DNA from: Balneola sp.
GTDB lineage: Bacteria; Bacteroidota; Rhodothermia; Balneolales; Balneolaceae
Direction of reading: 5' to 3'
Assembly: GCA_028284195.1 (NCBI GenBank)
Contig: JANQSE010000007.1
Coordinates: 62,001 to 126,000 of the forward strand
DNA: 64,000 bases
A model generated the notes under the pieces. The model saw only the letters and a list, made by a program, of their open reading frames with translations, was not told the DNA's origin and searched no databases. The translations under genes were made by a program, and so were the position numbers. Every line of letters starts with the position of its first letter. Position 1 is the stretch's first letter. Below, one piece after another: positions 49,830 to 61,708 of the stretch.

Positions 49830-50246
49830 TTATTCCCAGGGATTTATTAAATCAACTCCACATTCTTCAAAATCCTGCGTGTTTCTTGTAGCAACCTGCA
49901 ACCCTCTTGATTTGGCGATTGCAGATATTTGAGCATCGTATTGACTGATAGGCTTTCCGGATTTTCTTCTTGATGAAGTTATTTGAGCGTATGCTATACT
50001 TGCTTCAGAATCGAAAGATAAAACTCTACCTTTAAAATCTTCCTCAAACATGGCAAGTGCACTTTTGATTAATGCAGATTTTCTTTTTCCATTTGAGAGT
50101 AAAGCTATTCCATATAAAATCTCGGCCTGAGTTATTGCAGAGGTAAATAATAAATCCGGATTTTTAGCCGATACCCAGCTCACTACATGTGAAGAAGGCT
50201 CGGGTTTCATAAGTTCAGATATCACATTGGTATCAAGAAGGATCAT
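49830..50246 (-). CDS. PIN-domain toxin ribonuclease (VapC/FitB-like)
   Basis: The 138-residue protein has the PIN acidic set: Asp 5 (ILLDTNVISE), Glu 42 (TQAEILYGI), Asp 104 (SQYDAQISAIAKS) and Asp 125 (RNTQDF). The DTNVISE and C-terminal LINPWE patterns match FitB-type VapC toxins, which cleave RNA. It overlaps the upstream antitoxin gene by 14 bp on the same strand, the usual operon layout. The pair is flanked by repeat fragments, so it is probably mobile cargo. Confidence 0.9.
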   Translation of the reverse strand: MILLDTNVISELMKPEPSSHVVSWVSAKNPDLLFTSAITQAEILYGIALLSNGKRKSALIKSALAMFEEDFKGRVLSFDSEASIAYAQITSSRRKSGKPISQYDAQISAIAKSRGLQVATRNTQDFEECGVDLINPWE

Positions 50247-50490
50247 TTTGAAAATTTAATGGTTCCCGAATAGGTTCTCGCGGTATTTCCGGTAATTCGA
50301 TACCTCCGGTTTTGTGAAACCTTTTTTGGATAGATTTAGCAAGATTTACCGCAGGCTGCGATTCCTTTGCTAGTGCCGATCTTAAAATATTCCGGACTTC
50401 CTCTTCCATAGATCGTCCATTTTTTGCGGCCTGAACTCTGAGTTTTGTCTTATCTCTTTCATCCAAATTTCGAATAGTTATACTGGCCAT
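50233..50490 (-). CDS. Ribbon-helix-helix antitoxin (FitA-like)
   Basis: The 85-residue protein begins MASITIRNLDERDKTKLRVQ and has a RHH core with AAKNGRSMEEEVRNILRSAL, the FitA pattern. The C-terminal tail (PEIPREPIREPLNFQNDPS) should wrap the PIN toxin. It is expected to bind the promoter upstream, where a CAATG-ATAG-CATTG inverted repeat at 50522-50535 could be the operator. Confidence 0.88.
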   Translation of the reverse strand: MASITIRNLDERDKTKLRVQAAKNGRSMEEEVRNILRSALAKESQPAVNLAKSIQKRFHKTGGIELPEIPREPIREPLNFQNDPS

Positions 50491-51065: not shown

Positions 51066-53822
51066 TCAAAACGAGATGCTGAAACTCACATTTGGGGTAA
51101 AGCCCAACAAAAATCGGTCTTCTTGAAAAATCTCTACCTCTGTTTCGTTTAAATCAGATCTGTCAGGTTCAAAAAACCGGTTGAAAATGTTTCTTTGGTT
51201 ATACAGGTTCAATGCAGAAAGGCCGATTTTACCCGTCCAGTTTGAACGCTGCCTGCCCGAAAAATAATACCATACTGATGCATCCAGCCTGTGATAATCG
51301 GGGAGCCTTTCTGTGTTAATATTACCGTATTCTATGGTGTAAAAAATTTCGGGGTTGGTATCTGTATCATTATCATCTGCGGCTTCGTTTCTTAAAGCAA
51401 TGTCAGAAGTTGGCATAGTATATGGCAGCCCGGTTTTGTAAGTCCATCTGAGAGAAAACTCGATTTTGTTGAGCGTTAAAGACTGAGAAATGGAAATGGT
51501 ATGTGGCCGGTCGAGAGAAGAAGTAAATCGATTATTATTCAACTCACCAAAAAAGCTTTCTGCTTCACTGTAAGAATAGCTGATCCAGGTACGGTATCTT
51601 TTAAATCTCTTTCTTAGCAGAATATCCACTCCACGAATATATTCTTCGCCGGTAATAAACTCATTGCCGGTATTTCCGCCAAAATTGTAATTCGCTGATG
51701 TAAGGCCGGTAAGCTTTTTCGAATACCCTTCTACATCAAATAACCAACCTTTGCCCTGTATAATAAATCCTGCATTAGCCTGAAGATTATGGATAATCGG
51801 AAATTCAGTAATATTGGCTGTGAACCATATTTCTTCTGAACTGTTGGATATAGTGTTCTCAAAATTGGTGAGAGTCCGGAAAATTTGATGATGGCTGGTT
51901 GCGGAGGATTTTAGCGTAAGCCAGTTGGTGGGAGAATAGGAGGCTGAAAGTTGAGGATCCAGCGTGTGTACGCCTGCATATTCAAAGAAATTGTACCGGA
52001 AACCAACATCAACTAAAAAACCAAAATCAGGTTTGTAAATGTAATTGCCAAAAAGCCCGAAACTATTCCCCTGCTCATTAAAACTTTCGATAACATCAGG
52101 TGTAAAGCTGTTTTCTTCTCTCAAAGCATAGCTGATGTTAATTCGATTGAACTGCGTACCGAATTTCAGCAATCCGGTTTTAAGTGCAACTGAGTGGATG
52201 AGTTTAAGCTCCAGATTTTGAAGATCGTTTTTTCTTAAACCACGATCTGAAAGTGAATCGGGGGCATTTACAAATTCATCTTCAAACTCATCATCATCCT
52301 TATTTGGGTCATCCAGGTCATCATCCGGATCGTCATCGTTATAAGAAGCGTATTTAGCAATTTGTTTTGGAGTGTCATCAAGCCCGTTAATTTCACGCTG
52401 AAATAAAAACTGATAATCAAGTTTGTACTGAGAGTACGAGGCCGTGGCTGTAGTAGACCAAATATCGCCCCAGTTGGCATTCCATGTTGTGTTGATTCCA
52501 TAATGCCCCACATCATGTTTCTGGAAATCTGCTGTTTCCCGATTTTGATTTACCGATTGGAAATTCAAAATATTGGTACCGGCGAAAAAGCTGGCCGAAA
52601 AACTCTGGTCCAGCGAAGGATTATAAATCACTTTTGAATTTATATCCCAGAACCTGATTTCATTATCAGCATCAAACTCTTCTTCTAATACTATATTGCG
52701 GCTTTCATTTAAACGGCTTCCGTTAAACAGTTTGTCATCATAAGCGGTATATGTTGGGGTGGTATAATAATCATTGAGGGATCTTCTTGTGGATAGATAG
52801 ACGGATAACTGCTCATTTTTTGTGGGGATCATGGCAGAGCCGTTAAAATGCGTCATGTTTGAATCGAATTGGTAGCGGGCTTTCGCTGGTATATAGTAGG
52901 GGGCATCCAGATCGATTAAGCCTGCAGCACTTCCGCCATATTGCGTGGGGATGGCATTTCGGTAAATGTTCATTCTTGAAACTGAGGAGGGCACAAAAGA
53001 AGATACCAATCCAAAATAATGAGCACTATGGTACACGGGAATGTCGTCCCAGTAAATGGCTACCTGATCGCTATGGCTTCCACGAACATTCAGATCAGAA
53101 GCAGATTCATTTGCAGAAGAAATTCCCGGGATTTGCTGTAAAGAATACAACGCATCAGGTTCCGATAATCCTGGAATTATATTCGAATCGCCGGGGTACA
53201 TACTAAGTTGAGAGCCATTTTCGCTTACTGTAATTCCTGAATTCAGGTACTCAGTTACTGTAATTCCTTCTAATAAAATCTGATTTGGTTGAAGAAAAAT
53301 AGTGTCAATCTCGTTCACATATAAGTCAACAGCCAAGGCCTTGAAAGTGTCGAAGCCTATGTAAGAAATTTCCACTGTTTTATTTCCGGGTTTTTTGATG
53401 TAATAATCAATAGAGCCATCCAGATTAGCATGTGTTCCTTTAAAAGCGTCTGTTTCTTTTAGCTGAGCATAGCCAAGAGGCAGTCCGTCATCAGCAGCAA
53501 TAATGGTGAGGGTAAGCTGAACACCAATATCTTCAATAGATTTAATGGTAATGAAATTTCCTTCCACAAATTGAAACCCAAGCCGGTAAGGTTTCAGGAG
53601 TTTATTTAAAAAAACATCAATTCCTTCATTTTCGGATGAGATACTGATTAATGCCGATGGCATATTGTTATTGGAATAAGAGAAAAGCAGGTTGTACCGG
53701 GCTGAGATTTCATTCAGAATAGAGATCATGCTTTTTTGCTCCGCCGAATAGGTGATACTTTGAGCGTTTACAGCTTTGGAAATACTCATCAATAAAAATA
53801 TTGCAAGTAAAATCGGGCGCAT
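51066..53822 (-). CDS. TonB-dependent outer-membrane receptor with N-terminal STN signalling domain
   Basis: The 918-residue protein has a signal peptide (RPILLAIFLLMSISKAVNAQ), an STN domain (about residues 22-95: SITYSAEQKSMISILNEISA to FQFVEGNFITIKS), a carboxypeptidase-regulatory-like strand set (about 100-180), a plug with DALYSLQQIPGISSANESAS, DLNVRGSHSDQVAIYWDDIPVY and a long barrel that ends NVSFSISF. An acidic loop lies near 490-525. STN receptors pass a substrate signal to FecR, which lies 7 bp upstream. Nothing identifies the ligand. Confidence 0.92.
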   Translation of the reverse strand: MRPILLAIFLLMSISKAVNAQSITYSAEQKSMISILNEISARYNLLFSYSNNNMPSALISISSENEGIDVFLNKLLKPYRLGFQFVEGNFITIKSIEDIGVQLTLTIIAADDGLPLGYAQLKETDAFKGTHANLDGSIDYYIKKPGNKTVEISYIGFDTFKALAVDLYVNEIDTIFLQPNQILLEGITVTEYLNSGITVSENGSQLSMYPGDSNIIPGLSEPDALYSLQQIPGISSANESASDLNVRGSHSDQVAIYWDDIPVYHSAHYFGLVSSFVPSSVSRMNIYRNAIPTQYGGSAAGLIDLDAPYYIPAKARYQFDSNMTHFNGSAMIPTKNEQLSVYLSTRRSLNDYYTTPTYTAYDDKLFNGSRLNESRNIVLEEEFDADNEIRFWDINSKVIYNPSLDQSFSASFFAGTNILNFQSVNQNRETADFQKHDVGHYGINTTWNANWGDIWSTTATASYSQYKLDYQFLFQREINGLDDTPKQIAKYASYNDDDPDDDLDDPNKDDDEFEDEFVNAPDSLSDRGLRKNDLQNLELKLIHSVALKTGLLKFGTQFNRINISYALREENSFTPDVIESFNEQGNSFGLFGNYIYKPDFGFLVDVGFRYNFFEYAGVHTLDPQLSASYSPTNWLTLKSSATSHHQIFRTLTNFENTISNSSEEIWFTANITEFPIIHNLQANAGFIIQGKGWLFDVEGYSKKLTGLTSANYNFGGNTGNEFITGEEYIRGVDILLRKRFKRYRTWISYSYSEAESFFGELNNNRFTSSLDRPHTISISQSLTLNKIEFSLRWTYKTGLPYTMPTSDIALRNEAADDNDTDTNPEIFYTIEYGNINTERLPDYHRLDASVWYYFSGRQRSNWTGKIGLSALNLYNQRNIFNRFFEPDRSDLNETEVEIFQEDRFLLGFTPNVSFSISF

Positions 53823-53829
53823 GGCTGGA

Positions 53830-54777
53830 TTAGTTAAAAACGGTTAGCTCTTTCGTATGTTCGTTATAGGAATACTCAATACCAAAAGGATCGAGAACTA
53901 ACATAACGGCATTACCGGCATCCCGGATAGAAAAATTACCGGTGTAGATTAGCGAATCAGGAATGGCTGCCCCTGATACCCGTATTCCAAACTGGCTTTG
54001 AAGCTCCTGTATGGCCAGGTTTAACGGTACATTGTTCAGTGAAATAATTCCTGATGTCCAGCTTGGGGATTCAGAAATTTCAAAATTTAATTTCTGTACG
54101 GGTTTACCGGGTTCATATCTGATTTCCTCACCGGGATCCAATTCTCTGGAAATAGTATCTATTTCTACCCTGATCCGTCCTTCATACACAGAAGCATCAA
54201 AGAAACCATTGCGGCTTTTTACGTTGAAACGGGTTCCAAGTACAGTTACTGAGCCAAAATCGGTGTTAACAGAAAAAGTACTCCCTGTTTTTACGTCAAA
54301 AAAAGCTTCTCCGTTTAAAGTGAGCCGGCGGTTGTTTTCCCAGTTCTCGGTGTGGTAGGAGAGAGATGAATTTGCATTTAAAATAATTTCAGATCCGTCG
54401 GGTAATTGAATGTTCTTTTGTTCAGCAAAAGCAGTTTGATACTCTATAAGGCCTGTTTGGTTGGTTTGATAAAAATAAACTCCAACTAAACCTACAATCA
54501 GAACAGCGGCAGCAACCGTCCATATTTTTACTTTGTTGAGTGTATGCACAACAGCTTTTTTCGGAGCTTTGGAGGCTGAATTGCGGCGGCGCGATTTCAG
54601 ATCTGCAAACCCGGCATCAATATTAAATTCCGGAACCTCAAAGCCTTCGGTTAACCGGGCAATTTGTTCGAACTCATTAAATTCCTTAGAGCTTTCAAAT
54701 TCACGTAGTTCTTCTTTGGAAAGCCCGCTGGCAAGCCATTTAGCTAAAAAAGTATCGTCATCTTTCCAGGAGTTCAT
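53830..54777 (-). CDS. FecR-family anti-sigma factor
   Basis: The 315-residue protein has an N-terminal cytoplasmic part (FLAKWLASGLSKEELREFESS), one membrane span (about 84-103, WTVAAAVLIVGLVGVYFY), the FecR domain (NIQLPDGSEIILNANSSLSYH, LTLNGEAFFDVK, VLGTRFNVKS, VYEGRIRVE) and a C-terminal DUF4974-like domain (LNNVPLNLAIQELQSQFGI). It should hold or activate the adjacent ECF sigma factor depending on the STN signal. It follows the sigma gene by 2 bp. Confidence 0.93.
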   Translation of the reverse strand: MNSWKDDDTFLAKWLASGLSKEELREFESSKEFNEFEQIARLTEGFEVPEFNIDAGFADLKSRRRNSASKAPKKAVVHTLNKVKIWTVAAAVLIVGLVGVYFYQTNQTGLIEYQTAFAEQKNIQLPDGSEIILNANSSLSYHTENWENNRRLTLNGEAFFDVKTGSTFSVNTDFGSVTVLGTRFNVKSRNGFFDASVYEGRIRVEIDTISRELDPGEEIRYEPGKPVQKLNFEISESPSWTSGIISLNNVPLNLAIQELQSQFGIRVSGAAIPDSLIYTGNFSIRDAGNAVMLVLDPFGIEYSYNEHTKELTVFN

Positions 54778-54779
54778 AA

Positions 54780-55292
54780 CTAAATTCTGTCTGCGTATTC
54801 GTTCAATTTTTCTCTCAATGTTCCAAGTGCTTTGCTCATTCTTTTTTCAACTGCTTTCTGGCTGATGCCAAGCCGTTCAGCAATTTCTTTATAAGAGAGT
54901 TTGTCGATCCGGTTTAGTAAAAAAGCTTCCCTTTGCCCATCCGGTAAATCACTGATAATGGTTTCTACACTGTTCTTAAACTCATCATATTCGAGTTTGA
55001 ATTCGGGAGTTTCATATTCGAACGATTGCTCCGAATTGGTTTGAAATTCCATTCTTACTCTGTCGTGCTTAATCAGGTTTAGCATGGTATTTCGTGCAAC
55101 GGTAAACAAAAAGCTTTTGGCTGCTTCAGGTACAATATCTTTACACTTTTCCCAAAGTTTAGAGAAAGCTTCCTGAACCAGATCGTTAGAGCGTTCCAGG
55201 TTTTTGCATCGGTAGTACAAGTAATTTCTTAGCTGTACGGAATGTTTCCGATACAATTTCTCTATTGTTTTATCTTCACAAATATTTGCCAT
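54780..55292 (-). CDS. ECF RNA polymerase sigma factor (FecI-like)
   Basis: The frame opens at 55400, but ECF homology starts only near ANICEDKTIEKLYRKHSVQLRNY; I place the start at ATG 55290-55292 (170 aa). ATG 55298 is equally possible. Region 2 shows YLYYRCKNLERSNDLVQEAFSKLWEKC and FLFTVARNTMLNLIKH; region 4 shows LPDGQREAFLLNRIDKLSYKEIAERLGISQKAVEKRMSKAL. Its probable targets are the two identical promoter pairs at 56746-56785 and 59291-59330. It sits 2 bp before fecR. Confidence 0.9.
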   Translation of the reverse strand: MANICEDKTIEKLYRKHSVQLRNYLYYRCKNLERSNDLVQEAFSKLWEKCKDIVPEAAKSFLFTVARNTMLNLIKHDRVRMEFQTNSEQSFEYETPEFKLEYDEFKNSVETIISDLPDGQREAFLLNRIDKLSYKEIAERLGISQKAVEKRMSKALGTLREKLNEYADRI

Positions 55293-55407
55293 TGCCATCC
55301 AAGATAATAGATTATTTAGAGATTGATAACTTTTCAGAGCGGGCAAAAGGTTCATTTTATCAATTCTGGAAATCAAAGATATTTGTACTGCCGCATTCAT
55401 TGATGTT

Positions 55408-56529
55408 TTAAAACTTAACCTCTATTCCTGTTTGAAAATACGATGTAGTGTATTCTCTGTAAGCAAAGGTATTAGTTCGTTCTCTGTTCGAATTCCGTGT
55501 TACAAAAGAAGCCTTGGTGGTTAATGCTAAACGAGTTGTAAGTGGGGCTTTCAGCCCGAAAGAAAAATCCCAGAATTGGTGATTAAGTGACCTTCCACTT
55601 TGGGTTTTAAAATTACTGAAGTTCCTGAGTGTACGCTCTGCCCCAAGCTTGATCCTGGTTTCAGCGATGTAAAACTGAACATCCGTTCCAAATTCTATTT
55701 CATTGTAATTAAGGTTCCCTGATGGATAATCACCGACCAATGTGGCTGTTACCGGAAACTCAATTTCAAAGCGGCTGTTACTTGTTTTTAACTTGTATGC
55801 AGTGCCGGCCTCAACTTTTGAAAAAGCTCTTGAAGCTGCAATTATTGGGGAGTTTTGTGCAGTAAAGGCGATATTATTTTGATCCCGATACTGTAATTCT
55901 GTTTCTGCAGAAATTTCGTGAGTAACCACGGGGTTCTTCCACTTTTTCTTATATAATGCTTCCAGATAGTATGCCGAGTATCTGGTTTCGTTATTATCAA
56001 ACTGGTCATAAATTTTAAGCCGGTATTTGGCTTCAAATTTCAGCCAGGCTCTGTCGCCGAGATAAAAATCCAGATGAACCGGAGCTTCGAATTGCCGGTA
56101 AGAAAGTCTTGTGCTGTATATCAGGTCGTTTTGATTTACTCCGTCTTGCTGCTTTCTTTTAAATTCCGGAGCAAATTCAATGTACCGGTTATCGGCATAA
56201 TTAGCCCGGTAAGACGCGTATAGCCGGTATTCGTTTTTGTGAGCCTGGCTTTGTTGGTAGTATAAGTTAAGGCCAAGGTCAGCACTGATCTTTAGCCGGC
56301 TGTTTTCCCATTTTTTGTGATAGTCGGTATCAATGAAGAACCCATTGAATACAGAGTTCTGCCACAGCTGGTTTCTGGATAATGTCTCCGATGTTTCTAC
56401 CAATACATCCGGGCTTTTAAAAATATTCCATTTATAGCCATTGGTAACTCCGGTTTTTGCTTGCCATTGAGCGATTGCAGGAACGGCAATAAATAAGTAT
56501 GCGAGTGTAAATATGGTTAATTTTTTCAT
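55408..56529 (-). CDS. Predicted outer-membrane beta-barrel protein
   Basis: The 373-residue protein has a signal peptide (MKKLTIFTLAYLFIAVPAIAQ) and then about 14-16 alternating amphipathic strands (YRLYASYRANYADNRYIEFAP, HEISAETELQYRDQ, FEIEFPVTATLVG), ending TSYFQTGIEVKF with a terminal Phe beta-signal. No family is recognised. It lies in the same direction and close to the small secreted peptide gene (7 bp) and upstream of the sigma factor. Its mates suggest a porin or assembly partner of the peptide. Confidence 0.72.
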   Translation of the reverse strand: MKKLTIFTLAYLFIAVPAIAQWQAKTGVTNGYKWNIFKSPDVLVETSETLSRNQLWQNSVFNGFFIDTDYHKKWENSRLKISADLGLNLYYQQSQAHKNEYRLYASYRANYADNRYIEFAPEFKRKQQDGVNQNDLIYSTRLSYRQFEAPVHLDFYLGDRAWLKFEAKYRLKIYDQFDNNETRYSAYYLEALYKKKWKNPVVTHEISAETELQYRDQNNIAFTAQNSPIIAASRAFSKVEAGTAYKLKTSNSRFEIEFPVTATLVGDYPSGNLNYNEIEFGTDVQFYIAETRIKLGAERTLRNFSNFKTQSGRSLNHQFWDFSFGLKAPLTTRLALTTKASFVTRNSNRERTNTFAYREYTTSYFQTGIEVKF

Positions 56530-56536
56530 GGTTCTG

Positions 56537-56722
56537 TTATTTTAAAATATTAGCAAAAAAAGTGTTTGAGGAAGTGTTTTGGTTAGGCGCCTGCTGGGGC
56601 CGGACTTCCACAACAATTGGTTCATTAGCTGTTGATTCAAGTGCAAAAGTGTCGAATGCAGCGATACTCAAAAAGAAAGCTATCAGTATTAAAAAAGGTG
56701 TTTTTGGTTGTTTGTAATTCAT
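56537..56722 (-). CDS. Small secreted peptide (61 aa) in the ECF-controlled operon
   Basis: The 61-residue product has a clear signal peptide (hydrophobic core about residues 9-24, likely cut after TFA at 27), leaving about 34 residues: ESTANEPIVVEVRPQQAP followed by an Asn/Ser-rich end and FFANILK. There is no Cys. It matches no family I know. It starts 24 bp after an ECF-type promoter pair shared with the transglutaminase gene, which supports its being real and coregulated. It could be a substrate of the ligase/transglutaminase or a small signal. Confidence 0.62.
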   Translation of the reverse strand: MNYKQPKTPFLILIAFFLSIAAFDTFALESTANEPIVVEVRPQQAPNQNTSSNTFFANILK

Positions 56723-56745: not shown

Positions 56746-56785
56746 TTTATTTCTAAAACAACTGAAGTGAAGTTTACCCTACCCC
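56746..56785 (-). promoter_or_regulatory. ECF-type promoter A (upstream of small peptide)
   Basis: On the minus strand GGTAGGGTAAA, 9 bp, AGTTGTTTTAG, then an AT-rich AAATAAA. The same blocks with the same 9-bp spacer occur at 59291-59330. It lies 24 bp upstream of the peptide ATG. Confidence 0.72.
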
Positions 56786-56849
56786 TTCACTAAATTTTTT
56801 TTGTCCCTGTATATTTTTAACCTTCTAAGGCGGAAAAGAACTTGTTGAT

Positions 56850-57731
56850 TCAACAAGCAGCAAATTCAGTAAGAGTTGCTTTCAATCCTTTTTTGTTTGC
56901 CATTTGGATACCCAGGCCGGGACGCACATTCACTTCCAGTACTAATGGCCCTTTGTTTTTATCAATCACGATATCAATACCCAGATAGTTGAGTGGAAAT
57001 GACCGGGCTACTTTAACAGATAATTCCATCAGGTCTTGCCAGTCAGGAATTTGAATGTCCCGGATTTTTGCCCCACTGTCGGGATGATGTTCGATGTAGC
57101 TTTTTCCATCGTATGTGTGGGTGAGTTTTCCGGTTTGCAGGTCAATCCCAACTCCCAGGCCGCCTTGGTGAAGGTTTGCTTTTCCGTCCGATTCGCTAGT
57201 AGGAAGCCGCAACATAGCCATCAAAGGCTTTTGATTGCAGAGAATCACGCGGATATCGGCTACCCCATGTTCATAAATATTGGTAAGCGTGGCGTGGGGG
57301 AGAATCAGCTCTTCAATAATTGCTTTATCGGTATCTCCAAAGGAGTATATTCCGAACAGGATATTGGCTATATGCGAAAAGATCTGATCTTCAGAAACAG
57401 GATTCTTTCCCTGAAACCATTGATTGTTTTTACGGCGCAGTATTTTAATTCCATTGCCGCCGCTGCCCATTGCCGGTTTAATTACAATGCTATCATTTGC
57501 CTGAAGGCTTTCCCACGTGCGTTCAATATTCCCGATATGGTGGATTACTGCAAATGTTTTGGGGCAAGCCAGGCCATTGCCTTCAAGAACTTGCTTGGTC
57601 AATAATTTGTCATCTGCGAATTTGTAATCTTTACGGTTATTCAACTCATAAATTAATGAGCAGTTGCGTTCATTGATTCCAAGAATGCCATTCGGCATAC
57701 TCAATCTGGATGAAAAGAACTTACTTAACAT
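56850..57731 (-). CDS. ATP-grasp ligase (alpha-L-glutamate ligase/RimK-like)
   Basis: The frame opens at 57776 but I use the ATG at 57731, giving 293 residues (MLSKFFSSRLSMPNGILGINERN). The ATP-grasp core shows VIKPAMGSGGNGIKIL, IIEELILPHA, ADIRVILCNQKPLMAML, HQGGLGVGIDLQTG and the metal-site PLVLEVNVRPGLGIQMAN. Relatives form peptide or amide bonds, often adding Glu. The start overlaps the stop of the transglutaminase-7TM gene by 11 bp; in other bacteria this gene pair is recurrent. The target is unknown. Confidence 0.88.
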   Translation of the reverse strand: MLSKFFSSRLSMPNGILGINERNCSLIYELNNRKDYKFADDKLLTKQVLEGNGLACPKTFAVIHHIGNIERTWESLQANDSIVIKPAMGSGGNGIKILRRKNNQWFQGKNPVSEDQIFSHIANILFGIYSFGDTDKAIIEELILPHATLTNIYEHGVADIRVILCNQKPLMAMLRLPTSESDGKANLHQGGLGVGIDLQTGKLTHTYDGKSYIEHHPDSGAKIRDIQIPDWQDLMELSVKVARSFPLNYLGIDIVIDKNKGPLVLEVNVRPGLGIQMANKKGLKATLTEFAAC

Positions 57732-59274
57732 GGCTGGCCTCGATTTTTTTAGTATCAAAGTTGCCGAAGCGTGCATACTCGGTAACCCTCAAGCCAATCC
57801 ACTTACCTAACAGTAATCCAAACCCTGCGAGGCTGCATAGTATTTCCGGAAAGGTGATGAAAAAGTGTTGAATTATCTCGGCAGATAAAATCCACATGCA
57901 GCACATAGTTACAAGCAGCGTTTGCCCATAGATAGACAGAGCTTCTTTTACAGAGTCTTCGTCAATTTTGCGGGCGAATTTTTCTGCAATCATCGTAAGT
58001 ATAATTACAGGAAACATAAGTGTTGAATAAGGATCGACCCATCCGGTTTTAAAGAATATATTCATACAAACGAGGCTGTAAATGGCTACGGTAATTAGCA
58101 TAACAATCATTTTTGGAGTATGAAGTATTCCCCATTTGTCGAGAGGAAAGCTCATAAGGCTGATACAAACAACAATGGATGTAAAAAACAACAGCCCTTG
58201 AGTGGCTCCCATTTCTATAAAAGCAAAAGCGAGCAAAACCGGCAGAAAAACCCCATAGGTTTGCAGCCCTATCACGTTTTTAAAAATACCTACTATTAAT
58301 GCACCAAGGGGCAAAAGAAGTAGTAGTAAAAATGGCTTTTTTGGTACCGCTCCTGAATCAATCATCTCCCAGATGTTAAGCAGCGAAGAAGATTTGTAAT
58401 CATTTTTTCGGATCTCCTTGATGTGGTACATATAATCGAATTGATAGCCGGTATTTCGGGTAATCAGAAATTCGTCACCCTCATATATTTTTAAATAGTA
58501 AGCAGGCAGCGATGCAAAGTGATCATTTAAAGCATCGAAGGGAACCCATTGTTTGCCAATATAGGCTTCTACCCAGGCATGAGAGGTTCTTTTGCTACCT
58601 TCGTTTAAAATAAGCCCTCCAACCATTCTAGCCGGTATATTGTTATGCCGCAGCATGGCTACCAGCAAGCGGCTTTTTCCGTTACATGAACATTCCCGAT
58701 CCTGAAGGCAGGTAAGTGCATCGGTAAGATCAGAAATACTAGAAGATGGAATATCTAACACGAAGTTGAAAGACTTTCGAATAATATCCATCACTGAAGA
58801 ATCACTGCTGATTCCGAGGTCCTTGTTTAAGGCCTTTATTTTCGAGCTCGTTGACTGAATGATATCGCTTGGAATGGTAAATTCAGGATGGATGCCAGCC
58901 AGAGAAGGTTTAGCTAATTGATCTGTGATTTGATACTTCACAGAAGATGTTTTTACCTCAAAAGATAAAGTGATTGTAGTATCGCTACGAGAGTTGCCTT
59001 TCCACGTTATTAATGAATTTCCTCTGATTTTTTCTGTTTGAATATCCGCAGAAAGAGTATCATTTTTTTGAAGTTGCACAGATTGCCTGAACGAGTTCTG
59101 AGGAAGGAAAGAAGTTACCCGGTAACCCGATTCTGAGTTTTCGATATTAAATTCATAAGTAACCCTGTATTTTTTAGAAGAGATAATACTTTTTTCTGTT
59201 TCTTCGGCAGATGTAACCCGAAAGCCGATCCAGATGAATGGAATAATGATTAAAGAGTATGTGAAAATTTTCAT
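57721..59274 (-). CDS. Transglutaminase-like domain fused to 7-TM region
   Basis: The 517-residue protein has a signal/anchor (FTYSLIIIPFIWIGFRV), a beta-rich domain, a transglutaminase-like domain (about 180-280) and a C-terminal block of about seven membrane spans (from residue 315: FLLLLLLPLGALIVGIF, then GVFLPVLLAFAFIEMGA). The family is often called an inactive transglutaminase, yet here Cys 197 (CSCNGKS), His 232 (TSHAWVEAY) and Asp 247 (PFDAL) keep the catalytic order. The domain probably faces the periplasm. It pairs with the ATP-grasp ligase and has an ECF-type promoter. Confidence 0.88.
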   Translation of the reverse strand: MKIFTYSLIIIPFIWIGFRVTSAEETEKSIISSKKYRVTYEFNIENSESGYRVTSFLPQNSFRQSVQLQKNDTLSADIQTEKIRGNSLITWKGNSRSDTTITLSFEVKTSSVKYQITDQLAKPSLAGIHPEFTIPSDIIQSTSSKIKALNKDLGISSDSSVMDIIRKSFNFVLDIPSSSISDLTDALTCLQDRECSCNGKSRLLVAMLRHNNIPARMVGGLILNEGSKRTSHAWVEAYIGKQWVPFDALNDHFASLPAYYLKIYEGDEFLITRNTGYQFDYMYHIKEIRKNDYKSSSLLNIWEMIDSGAVPKKPFLLLLLLPLGALIVGIFKNVIGLQTYGVFLPVLLAFAFIEMGATQGLLFFTSIVVCISLMSFPLDKWGILHTPKMIVMLITVAIYSLVCMNIFFKTGWVDPYSTLMFPVIILTMIAEKFARKIDEDSVKEALSIYGQTLLVTMCCMWILSAEIIQHFFITFPEILCSLAGFGLLLGKWIGLRVTEYARFGNFDTKKIEASHVK

Positions 59275-59290
59275 AGTTGAGTTAGTTTCG

Positions 59291-59330
59291 TTTATTACTA
59301 AAACAACTATGATGGAATTTACCCTACCTG
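59291..59330 (-). promoter_or_regulatory. ECF-type promoter B (upstream of transglutaminase-7TM)
   Basis: On the minus strand GGTAGGGTAAA, 9 bp, AGTTGTTTTAG, then TAATAAA. It agrees with promoter A in both 11-bp blocks and in spacer length, while the 9-bp spacer differs at 6 positions. It lies 17 bp upstream of the transglutaminase ATG. Confidence 0.72.
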
Positions 59331-59638: not shown

Positions 59639-61708
59639 TCAACCCATCCCATAAAACTCAGCCTTTTCTTTAAAGTATGGCTCGAAAGTCTCTTTTAAAG
59701 ATTGATGTTCAGGTAATTCCAGACCGGAATCTCGTTCAATCAGTTCTTTTGCTTTTGCCTTTGCCTGGGCAAGAATAAATTGATCTTCCACAATGTCGGC
59801 TACTTTAAAATCGGGCAAGCCGCTTTGTTTGGTACCGAGAAAATCGCCGGGGCCGCGTAATTTCAGGTCGGCTTCTGCAATTCGGAATCCATCATTAGTT
59901 TCCTCCATGGTTTTGAGCCGGAATGCTCCGGCTTTGCTCACTTTCACATCCGGCATTAGTATGCAGTAACTCTGTCGTTCGCCCCGGCCAATTCTTCCAC
60001 GTAGCTGATGAAGTTGAGAAAGTCCAAATCGTTCAGCGTGTTCAACGATCATAACAGATGCATTAGGGACATCCACACCTACTTCAATAACCGTCGTAGA
60101 AACCAAAATCTGGATATTATTGTTGATGAAGGCTTTCATAGCCTGATCTTTCTCGTCTGATTTCATTCTGCCGTGAAGCAAGCCTGTTTTAAAATCCGGG
60201 AATCGCTTTTTCAGCTTTTCAAAGCCTGCGGTGGCATCTTTTAAGTCCAGAGCTTCCGATTCTTCCACTAATGGATAGATTACATATACTTGCCCGCCGT
60301 TTTTAACTTCGCTTTCCACAAAATCCCAAACACCCTCACGTTTTTTGTTCCCACGGATGGCAGTTCGCACAGGTTTACGCCCGGCAGGGAGATCTTTTAT
60401 GATAGAAATGTCTAAGTCAGCATAAACCGTCATGGCCAAAGAGCGGGGGATAGGAGTAGCACTCATTACCAAAATGTGAGGATGAAAACCTTTGTTAAGC
60501 AGTTCAGCTCGTTGTTTTACACCAAACCGATGTTGTTCATCAATTACAGCAAGGCCCAATTTATGGAACCGGACATCCTGCTGGATAATGGCATGAGTTC
60601 CAACCACAATCTGGCATCCGCCGCCTTCTAGATCGGTGAGAACATCCATTCGTAACTTTGAGTTTTGCCCGCCTGACAGCAACCGAATATTGATATCCAA
60701 TCCTTGCAGATGGTCCGAAAGTGTCCGGTAGTGTTGTTCGGCAAGAATCTCTGTGGGAGCGAGAAACGCAGCCTGAAATCCATTGTCCAGGGCCATCAAT
60801 AAAGCACCAATGGCTACAATGGTTTTTCCTGCACCCACATCTCCCTGAATAAGGCGGTTCATTTGTTTTCCGGATCGTATATCTTTTTTAACGTCTCCCA
60901 AAGAAGATTTTTGCCCTTCCGTTAACTCAAAGGGAAGAAGTTCATTAAAATATTTCGACGTGTATGTTCCGGTTTCAGAAAATACATGGCCCGATTTTCT
61001 TTTTTCAACGGTATGATGGATTTTTTCCATGCTGAGTTCAAACAAAAATAACTCCTCAAATTTAAACCGCTCTAAGGCTCTTTTATGTTCGGAATGATTT
61101 TCGGGGAAATGGATCATCCGGTAAGCTTCAGGCCGGGATGGAAATTTCATTTCTTTGATAAGAGCATCAGGTAAGAATTCTTTTATGGTGATTTGGTTCA
61201 AAAGTGTATCGATCCACCCAGCTATAATTTTATTGGTAAGACGTGCTTTACTGAATTCTTTATTGCCTGGATAAATAGGTACGATCTTTGAAAAGCTACT
61301 TACATCACCTTCCTCAGACAATTTGTCCACTTCGGGATGGGCTATTGTTATCGATTTTCCGTAGCGTTTAGCTGCTCCAAAAAAAGCAACGAGTTCTCCT
61401 TCTTTGAATATTTTTTTGAAATAGGAGGCTCCCCGAAACCAAACTCCTTTTACCACTCCGGTTTTATCATAAATAGATACTTCTAATCGCTTACTCTTTT
61501 TGAATCCCACATCTTCGATCTTAGTAACCTTGCCAACCACGGTTACCTCTTCTCCTGAACCCATCAAATGATTGATCTTTTGAACATTACTTCTGTCGAG
61601 ATATCGCCGGGGAAAGAAATTCAATAAGTCTCGCTCGGTCCGAACTTCTTCTGAAGCTAATGCATCAAGTTTTTTTGAGCTCAAACCGGGTAGTTTTGAA
61701 ATAGACAA
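59639..61708 (-). CDS. recG: ATP-dependent DNA helicase RecG
   Basis: The 689-residue protein starts with TTG (MSISKLPGLSSKKLDAL). It has the OB-fold wedge domain (VTVVGKVTKIEDVGF), RLIQGDVGAGKTIVA (Walker A), VIDEQHRFGVKQR (DEQH box), VMSATPIPRSL, STTVIEVGVDVPNASVMIVEHAERFGLSQLHQLRGR (given as the C-terminal helicase block about 535-570) and the TRG-like LRGPGDFLGTKQSGLPDF. It remodels stalled forks and branched DNA. A decayed copy of its last 50 bp lies at 49758-49808. Confidence 0.96.
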   Translation of the reverse strand: MSISKLPGLSSKKLDALASEEVRTERDLLNFFPRRYLDRSNVQKINHLMGSGEEVTVVGKVTKIEDVGFKKSKRLEVSIYDKTGVVKGVWFRGASYFKKIFKEGELVAFFGAAKRYGKSITIAHPEVDKLSEEGDVSSFSKIVPIYPGNKEFSKARLTNKIIAGWIDTLLNQITIKEFLPDALIKEMKFPSRPEAYRMIHFPENHSEHKRALERFKFEELFLFELSMEKIHHTVEKRKSGHVFSETGTYTSKYFNELLPFELTEGQKSSLGDVKKDIRSGKQMNRLIQGDVGAGKTIVAIGALLMALDNGFQAAFLAPTEILAEQHYRTLSDHLQGLDINIRLLSGGQNSKLRMDVLTDLEGGGCQIVVGTHAIIQQDVRFHKLGLAVIDEQHRFGVKQRAELLNKGFHPHILVMSATPIPRSLAMTVYADLDISIIKDLPAGRKPVRTAIRGNKKREGVWDFVESEVKNGGQVYVIYPLVEESEALDLKDATAGFEKLKKRFPDFKTGLLHGRMKSDEKDQAMKAFINNNIQILVSTTVIEVGVDVPNASVMIVEHAERFGLSQLHQLRGRIGRGERQSYCILMPDVKVSKAGAFRLKTMEETNDGFRIAEADLKLRGPGDFLGTKQSGLPDFKVADIVEDQFILAQAKAKAKELIERDSGLELPEHQSLKETFEPYFKEKAEFYGMG

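Follow-up and report, generated by a model that had tools for sequence, protein, structure and literature searches.

A two-block promoter motif predicted to join a FecI-FecR-TonB operon and an RloB/RloC-like gene pair in one regulon of Balneola sp.

The described systems that come closest to the locus studied here are FecI-FecR-FecA cell-surface signalling and the RloABC system of Pseudomonas aeruginosa. FecI-type sigma factors are very numerous in Bacteroidota and, to our knowledge, their promoters are hardly known. In P. aeruginosa, mutants of RloB and RloC are affected in hypo-osmotic tolerance, morphology, biofilm formation and antibiotic tolerance (PMC12239564), and in Shewanella vesiculosa more vesicles are released when an RloB-type gene is disrupted (PMC12096838). 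The cluster that we describe in Balneola sp. is best read, from its genes and promoter motif, as FecI-FecR-TonB cell-surface signalling with an RloB/RloC-like envelope module as its output.

In the window (the whole stretch of 64,000 nucleotides that was analysed), the cluster consists of two units, each behind a predicted promoter:

59298-59328, minus strand: predicted ECF promoter P1, GGTAGGGTAAA-N9-AGTTGTTTTAG, its second block ending 23 nt before the ATG (59274) of the transglutaminase-7TM gene
57721-59274, minus strand: RloB-like membrane protein, a transglutaminase domain fused to 7TM_transglut (PF14402), C197-H232-D247 intact
56850-57731, minus strand: RloC-like ATP-grasp ligase, TIGR02291-like, PF14397
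56840-56858, minus strand: terminator-like hairpin with a T-rich tail, 3' of the ATP-grasp gene and between the two units, a consensus match only
56753-56783, minus strand: predicted ECF promoter P2, its second block ending 30 nt before the ATG (56722) of the small peptide gene
56537-56722, minus strand: 61-aa peptide with one N-terminal hydrophobic segment and a K.[ST].PYL-like start
55408-56529, minus strand: 373-aa outer-membrane beta-barrel of about 14-16 strands, with a generic OmpG/CymA-like fold
54780-55400, minus strand: FecI-type ECF sigma factor, Sigma70_r2 E 5e-12, r4_2 E 5e-16, TIGR02985-like
53830-54777, minus strand: FecR-type anti-sigma regulator, PF04773 E 3e-19, 2 bp downstream of the sigma gene
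51066-53822, minus strand: TonB-dependent receptor, plug E 1e-8, with an STN/FecR_C-like N-terminal signalling domain at weak scores

The transglutaminase-7TM protein matches PF14402 at E 3e-36, together with PF01841, and scores 121 bits against the NCBIfam RloB model, below the cut-off of 900. The ATP-grasp protein reaches 283 bits with TIGR02291 (cut-off 314) and E 1e-70 with PF14397, and the likely start of its gene, the ATG at 57731, overlaps the preceding transglutaminase-7TM gene. The hairpin that follows (56858-56840) is of a kind whose matches did not exceed chance in the same scan. In the P2 unit, the genes for the peptide, the barrel, the sigma factor, FecR and the TonB-dependent receptor succeed one another in this order with intergenic gaps of 2 to 8 bases. 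The structural model of the barrel (pLDDT 77) matches many barrels, all at low TM scores, and the comparison therefore gives no function. The original prediction had named an STN receptor: a TonB-dependent receptor with a plug is indeed present, but the signalling domain is seen only weakly, as residues 28-94 match FecR_C at E 0.001 and STN at E 0.11, both below the Pfam cut-offs. The peptide belongs to a family of 52-83 aa proteins with one hydrophobic segment, the same conserved start and a variable C-terminal half, whose genes, in several families, separate the ATP-grasp gene from the barrel gene (L067 12397-12621, L074 12342-12542, L081 12540-12746 and others). Elsewhere in the window, overlapping PIN-like and small ribbon-helix-helix-like proteins (49830-50490) resemble, by eye only, a VapBC/FitAB toxin-antitoxin pair.

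A pattern search of the window finds GGTAGGGTAAA-N9-AGTTGTTTTAG in two exact copies, P1 and P2, both on the minus strand. They lie where the original prediction had placed two spaced-block copies, upstream of the transglutaminase-7TM and peptide genes, and they have the properties that it described: identical 11-bp blocks, a 9-bp spacer whose sequence mostly differs, and a following AATAAA, which we find as AATAAAC 3' of the second block at both sites. The distances that it gave to the start codons, 24 and 17 bp, are right to within one base, since the AATAAA ends 23 nt before the ATG at P2 and 16 nt before it at P1. The genome-wide two-block search that it had proposed shows that the motif is not scattered: P1 and P2 are the sole matches at ≤3 mismatches in the whole genome (2,682,890 bases; 2.68 Mb), where the reversed pattern has none at the same tolerance, and 100 dinucleotide-preserving shuffles of the window likewise give no match at ≤3 mismatches, the real window giving P1 and P2 only. 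The anticipated two-operon regulon agrees with the two motif-bearing units of this genome, and the FecI-like sigma factor expected in the same cluster is the ECF sigma listed above, with matches to both Sigma70_r2 and r4_2.

The 11-bp blocks, although identical in the two copies as had been claimed, are longer than what relatives have in common: comparison with the upstream sequences of the clusters in two relatives, G041 and G012, cut the invariant core to GGTAGGGTA-N14-TGTTTT. At ≤2 mismatches this core is no richer in the Balneola genome than its reversed control, and three extra one-mismatch sites lie in or near unrelated genes; we therefore claim no third target.

Within Balneolaceae we sampled 147 relatives. 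The long pattern matches at ≤3 mismatches in five of these genomes, including that of Balneola sp. itself. G041 and G012 possess the orthologous cluster with the core at both positions, and exact cores number three in each of them and two in the Balneola genome. An orthologue of the sigma factor at E < 1e-98 is present in only 3/147 (Balneola sp., G012 and G041; the next best match is at 1e-31), and these are the same three genomes that have the cluster promoters. Two further members of the family, G043 and G047, keep the transglutaminase, ATP-grasp, peptide and barrel genes; beside these we found no sigma, FecR or receptor gene, there is no core upstream, and their genomes hold no orthologue of the sigma factor. 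In both, the catalytic Cys of the transglutaminase is lost.

In the window, recG (59639-61708) adjoins the cluster. The barrel gene of G012 is displaced from the cluster and lies near recG, beside a DUF3541 gene (L030 7188-9719, contig C3); an exact core precedes the barrel gene and a one-mismatch copy precedes the DUF3541 gene, a motif-bearing neighbour that is absent from the other loci examined. Further copies precede, in G041, the gene of a Reg_prop sensor and that of a lipoprotein with a weak resemblance to DUF6055 (L028 1764-1792 and L158 6947-6975) and, in G012, the gene of a MauG-type cytochrome peroxidase lipoprotein (L157 4014-4042). These sites may be additional targets, or may be due to chance.

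Among 84,980 species genomes scanned, relatives of the transglutaminase gene were found at 80 loci; a related sigma gene lies nearby in 32 loci, counting the window and G012. Mismatches were scored over the 14 core positions in Bacteroidota and Balneolota loci. Among the sigma-linked loci, many of which come from related Flavobacteriaceae and are phylogenetically non-independent, the region upstream of the transglutaminase-7TM gene contains the core at ≤3 mismatches in 31/32 and at 0-2 in 27/32, the matches being weaker (2-4 mismatches) in loci of the Cyclobacteriaceae type. The region upstream of fecR does so at ≤3 mismatches in 22/29, and the reversed pattern never falls below four mismatches in the same upstream regions. 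Among 30 loci without a nearby sigma gene, only 5 have ≤3 mismatches. Upstream of fecI the matches score at background level or close to it, save where fecI follows the peptide gene (G012). The motif thus recurs at a fixed spacing before orthologous genes throughout the phylum; a lack of conservation there would have counted against the original prediction.

The first block, GGTNGGGT, occurs in 56/61 upstream regions as against 65/2480 random stretches; in 43 cases the second block comes at one and the same spacing, any other spacing being represented once or twice. A logo of 53 sites reveals conservation at positions outside the search pattern: GG before and AA after the first block, and CC before, and A and AAA after, the second. 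Conserved spaced blocks near genes may also be operators, and with P1 and P2 as predicted promoters the blocks could instead bind a DNA-binding regulator that co-occurs with the cluster. They form neither inverted nor direct repeats, however; their spacing is fixed as in a -35/-10 pair, and A/T-rich sequence comes next, shortly ahead of the start codon. In sequence terms the block pair has the features of a -35/-10 pair, not those of a palindromic operator. Moreover, of the regulators only the ECF sigma follows the motif from genome to genome, and a domain search of the cluster genes found no other DNA-binding protein. We consider an operator improbable, and favour a promoter read by a sigma factor.

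Which sigma factor this would be is indicated by the sigma proteins of the motif loci, which form one clade with full support (100/100). The clade takes in only three sigma genes without a known transglutaminase neighbour; the distant sigma of L077, picked up by our distance rule, falls outside it. To compare motif and clade, we used 394 phylum genomes chosen independently of the cluster, which contain clade sigma genes in 38 cases, the transglutaminase gene in five, and exact GGTRGGGTR-N14-TGTTYT in 29. The exact motif is present in 21/38 genomes with a clade sigma versus 8/356 without (Fisher p 2e-18), and a comparison of coordinates shows a clade sigma gene no more than about 4 kb away from 22 of the 27 exact sites found in genomes with such a sigma. 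The remaining 17/38 sigma-bearing genomes have no exact match, and variants such as GGTAGGGAT occur. Because the reversed pattern also matches in about 25/394 genomes, we regard isolated matches in sigma-less genomes as chance level.

A motif specific to RloBC-like clusters would not explain these results, as most sigma-clade genomes lack RloBC-like genes and many of them carry the motif near the sigma gene; its targets there include genes for lipoproteins and a tRNA_anti-like OB-fold gene with a DUF5777 barrel gene behind it. The promoter therefore appears to belong to the sigma clade rather than to the RloBC-like genes. Nor is the motif common to all FecR systems: the other FecR loci of the phylum sample, the second one of the Balneola genome included, have no copy at ≤2 mismatches before fecR, with the sole exception of L173 (G169), whose sigma is a member of the same clade and which carries the motif, in exact and nearly exact form, upstream of fecR and of a lipoprotein gene. 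In Flavobacteriaceae, loci L212-L215 show the motif promoter before the tRNA_anti-like OB-fold gene; in L212 the receptor gene and the OB-fold gene flank it, and the DUF5777 barrel gene comes after the OB-fold gene.

The Balneola genome does contain a second FecI-FecR-TonB locus (C15, L154), and the promoters could conceivably be read by this or another FecI paralogue, or by a housekeeping sigma factor, with the cluster's own sigma acting on other targets. The C15 locus is without the motif, however, and G043 and G047 also lack it although other sigma factors must be present there; together with the strong co-occurrence of motif and sigma clade, this makes a different sigma very improbable. 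That the similarity of the two blocks merely reflects a recent local duplication or chance, as the presence of only two copies, separated by 2.5 kb within one cluster, might suggest, is hardly conceivable given that the blocks are identical while the spacers differ, that the same blocks stand before orthologues in several families, and that shuffles yield none.

We are thus fairly confident that the blocks are -35 and -10 promoter elements, that the sigma factor encoded at 54780-55400 reads both units, and that the scheme holds from receptor to promoter. We infer recognition by this sigma, and the transcript starts, from what the sequences display directly, namely the motif with its fixed spacing and its conservation, the way it co-occurs with the sigma clade, and how the operons are laid out; control of both units by the receptor is proposed after the FecI-FecR-TonB paradigm. 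A ligand would bind the TonB-dependent receptor at the outer membrane, the N-terminal domain of the receptor would act on FecR, and FecR would cease restraining the sigma factor, or begin helping it. The sigma holoenzyme would then initiate at P1, giving expression of the transglutaminase-7TM and ATP-grasp genes, and at P2, giving expression of the peptide, barrel, sigma, anti-sigma and receptor genes. Very probably, then, an outside cue at the outer membrane switches on an envelope-modifying gene set. Judging by the resemblance to RloB and RloC, what the system alters is probably the envelope, or else a secreted or surface molecule; the purpose suggested by this gene resemblance is envelope remodelling by the pair.

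The predicted wiring is not the same throughout the phylum. Balneolaceae have the promoter upstream of the peptide gene, or of the remainder of that operon, which would put the sigma within its own regulon; in Balneola sp., the position of the sigma gene inside the P2 unit would make the system autoregulatory. In the majority of other Bacteroidota the promoter instead sits between fecI and fecR, an arrangement in which the RloBC-like genes would be induced together with the anti-sigma and the receptor only. One may speculate further that the sigma factor, FecR, the receptor and GGTAGGGTA-N14-TGTTTT constitute a portable cassette placed on varied envelope cargo in different Bacteroidota, and that in the Balneola version the peptide is a substrate of the ATP-grasp and transglutaminase proteins which exits via the barrel and whose product is sensed, a combination that we think doubtful.

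We know of no previous description of the GGTAGGGTA-N14-TGTTTT promoter consensus. Full-text literature searches, covering mostly open-access papers, returned no earlier description of the motif, the gene pair or FecI promoters in Bacteroidota, although a similar consensus may have been predicted before. A defined consensus of 29 bp, linked to a single sigma clade in several families, makes regulons readable from genomes. It also links a surface-sensing receptor to RloB/RloC-like genes, whose Pseudomonas counterparts affect envelope stress, morphology and antibiotic tolerance, in a version of the cluster whose transglutaminase is, by its intact triad, apparently active and whose reaction is open to testing.

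Like RloABC of P. aeruginosa (PMC12239564), the cluster has adjacent genes for a transglutaminase-7TM protein and an ATP-grasp protein. The RloB family, under which the transglutaminase protein is annotated, is described as inactive, whereas here the triad is intact: C-H-D is kept in 32/32 sigma-linked loci, that of the window included, in a sample drawn by patterns in the transglutaminase domain that take in neither Cys nor His. A search for PF05618 detected no RloA-type retropepsin in the Balneola genome (98.5% complete) or in G041; in its stead the cluster encodes a membrane peptide and an outer-membrane barrel. On account of the intact triad and the lack of this retropepsin, we keep the cluster apart from RloABC. 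Control apparently differs as well, lying with an ECF sigma here and with VxrB in Vibrio cholerae (PMC12239564). The Flavobacteriaceae loci of the same ECF clade share the sigma, FecR and TonB receptor genes with the same promoter, but their cargo consists of lipoprotein genes, or of the tRNA_anti-like OB-fold gene with the DUF5777 barrel. With FecI-FecR-FecA signalling, finally, the cluster shares the same three proteins in one operon and, as far as the sequence indicates, a promoter motif common to the target operons; it differs in that the target is an envelope-modification module rather than an iron carrier system, and in that the sigma gene appears to lie behind its own promoter.
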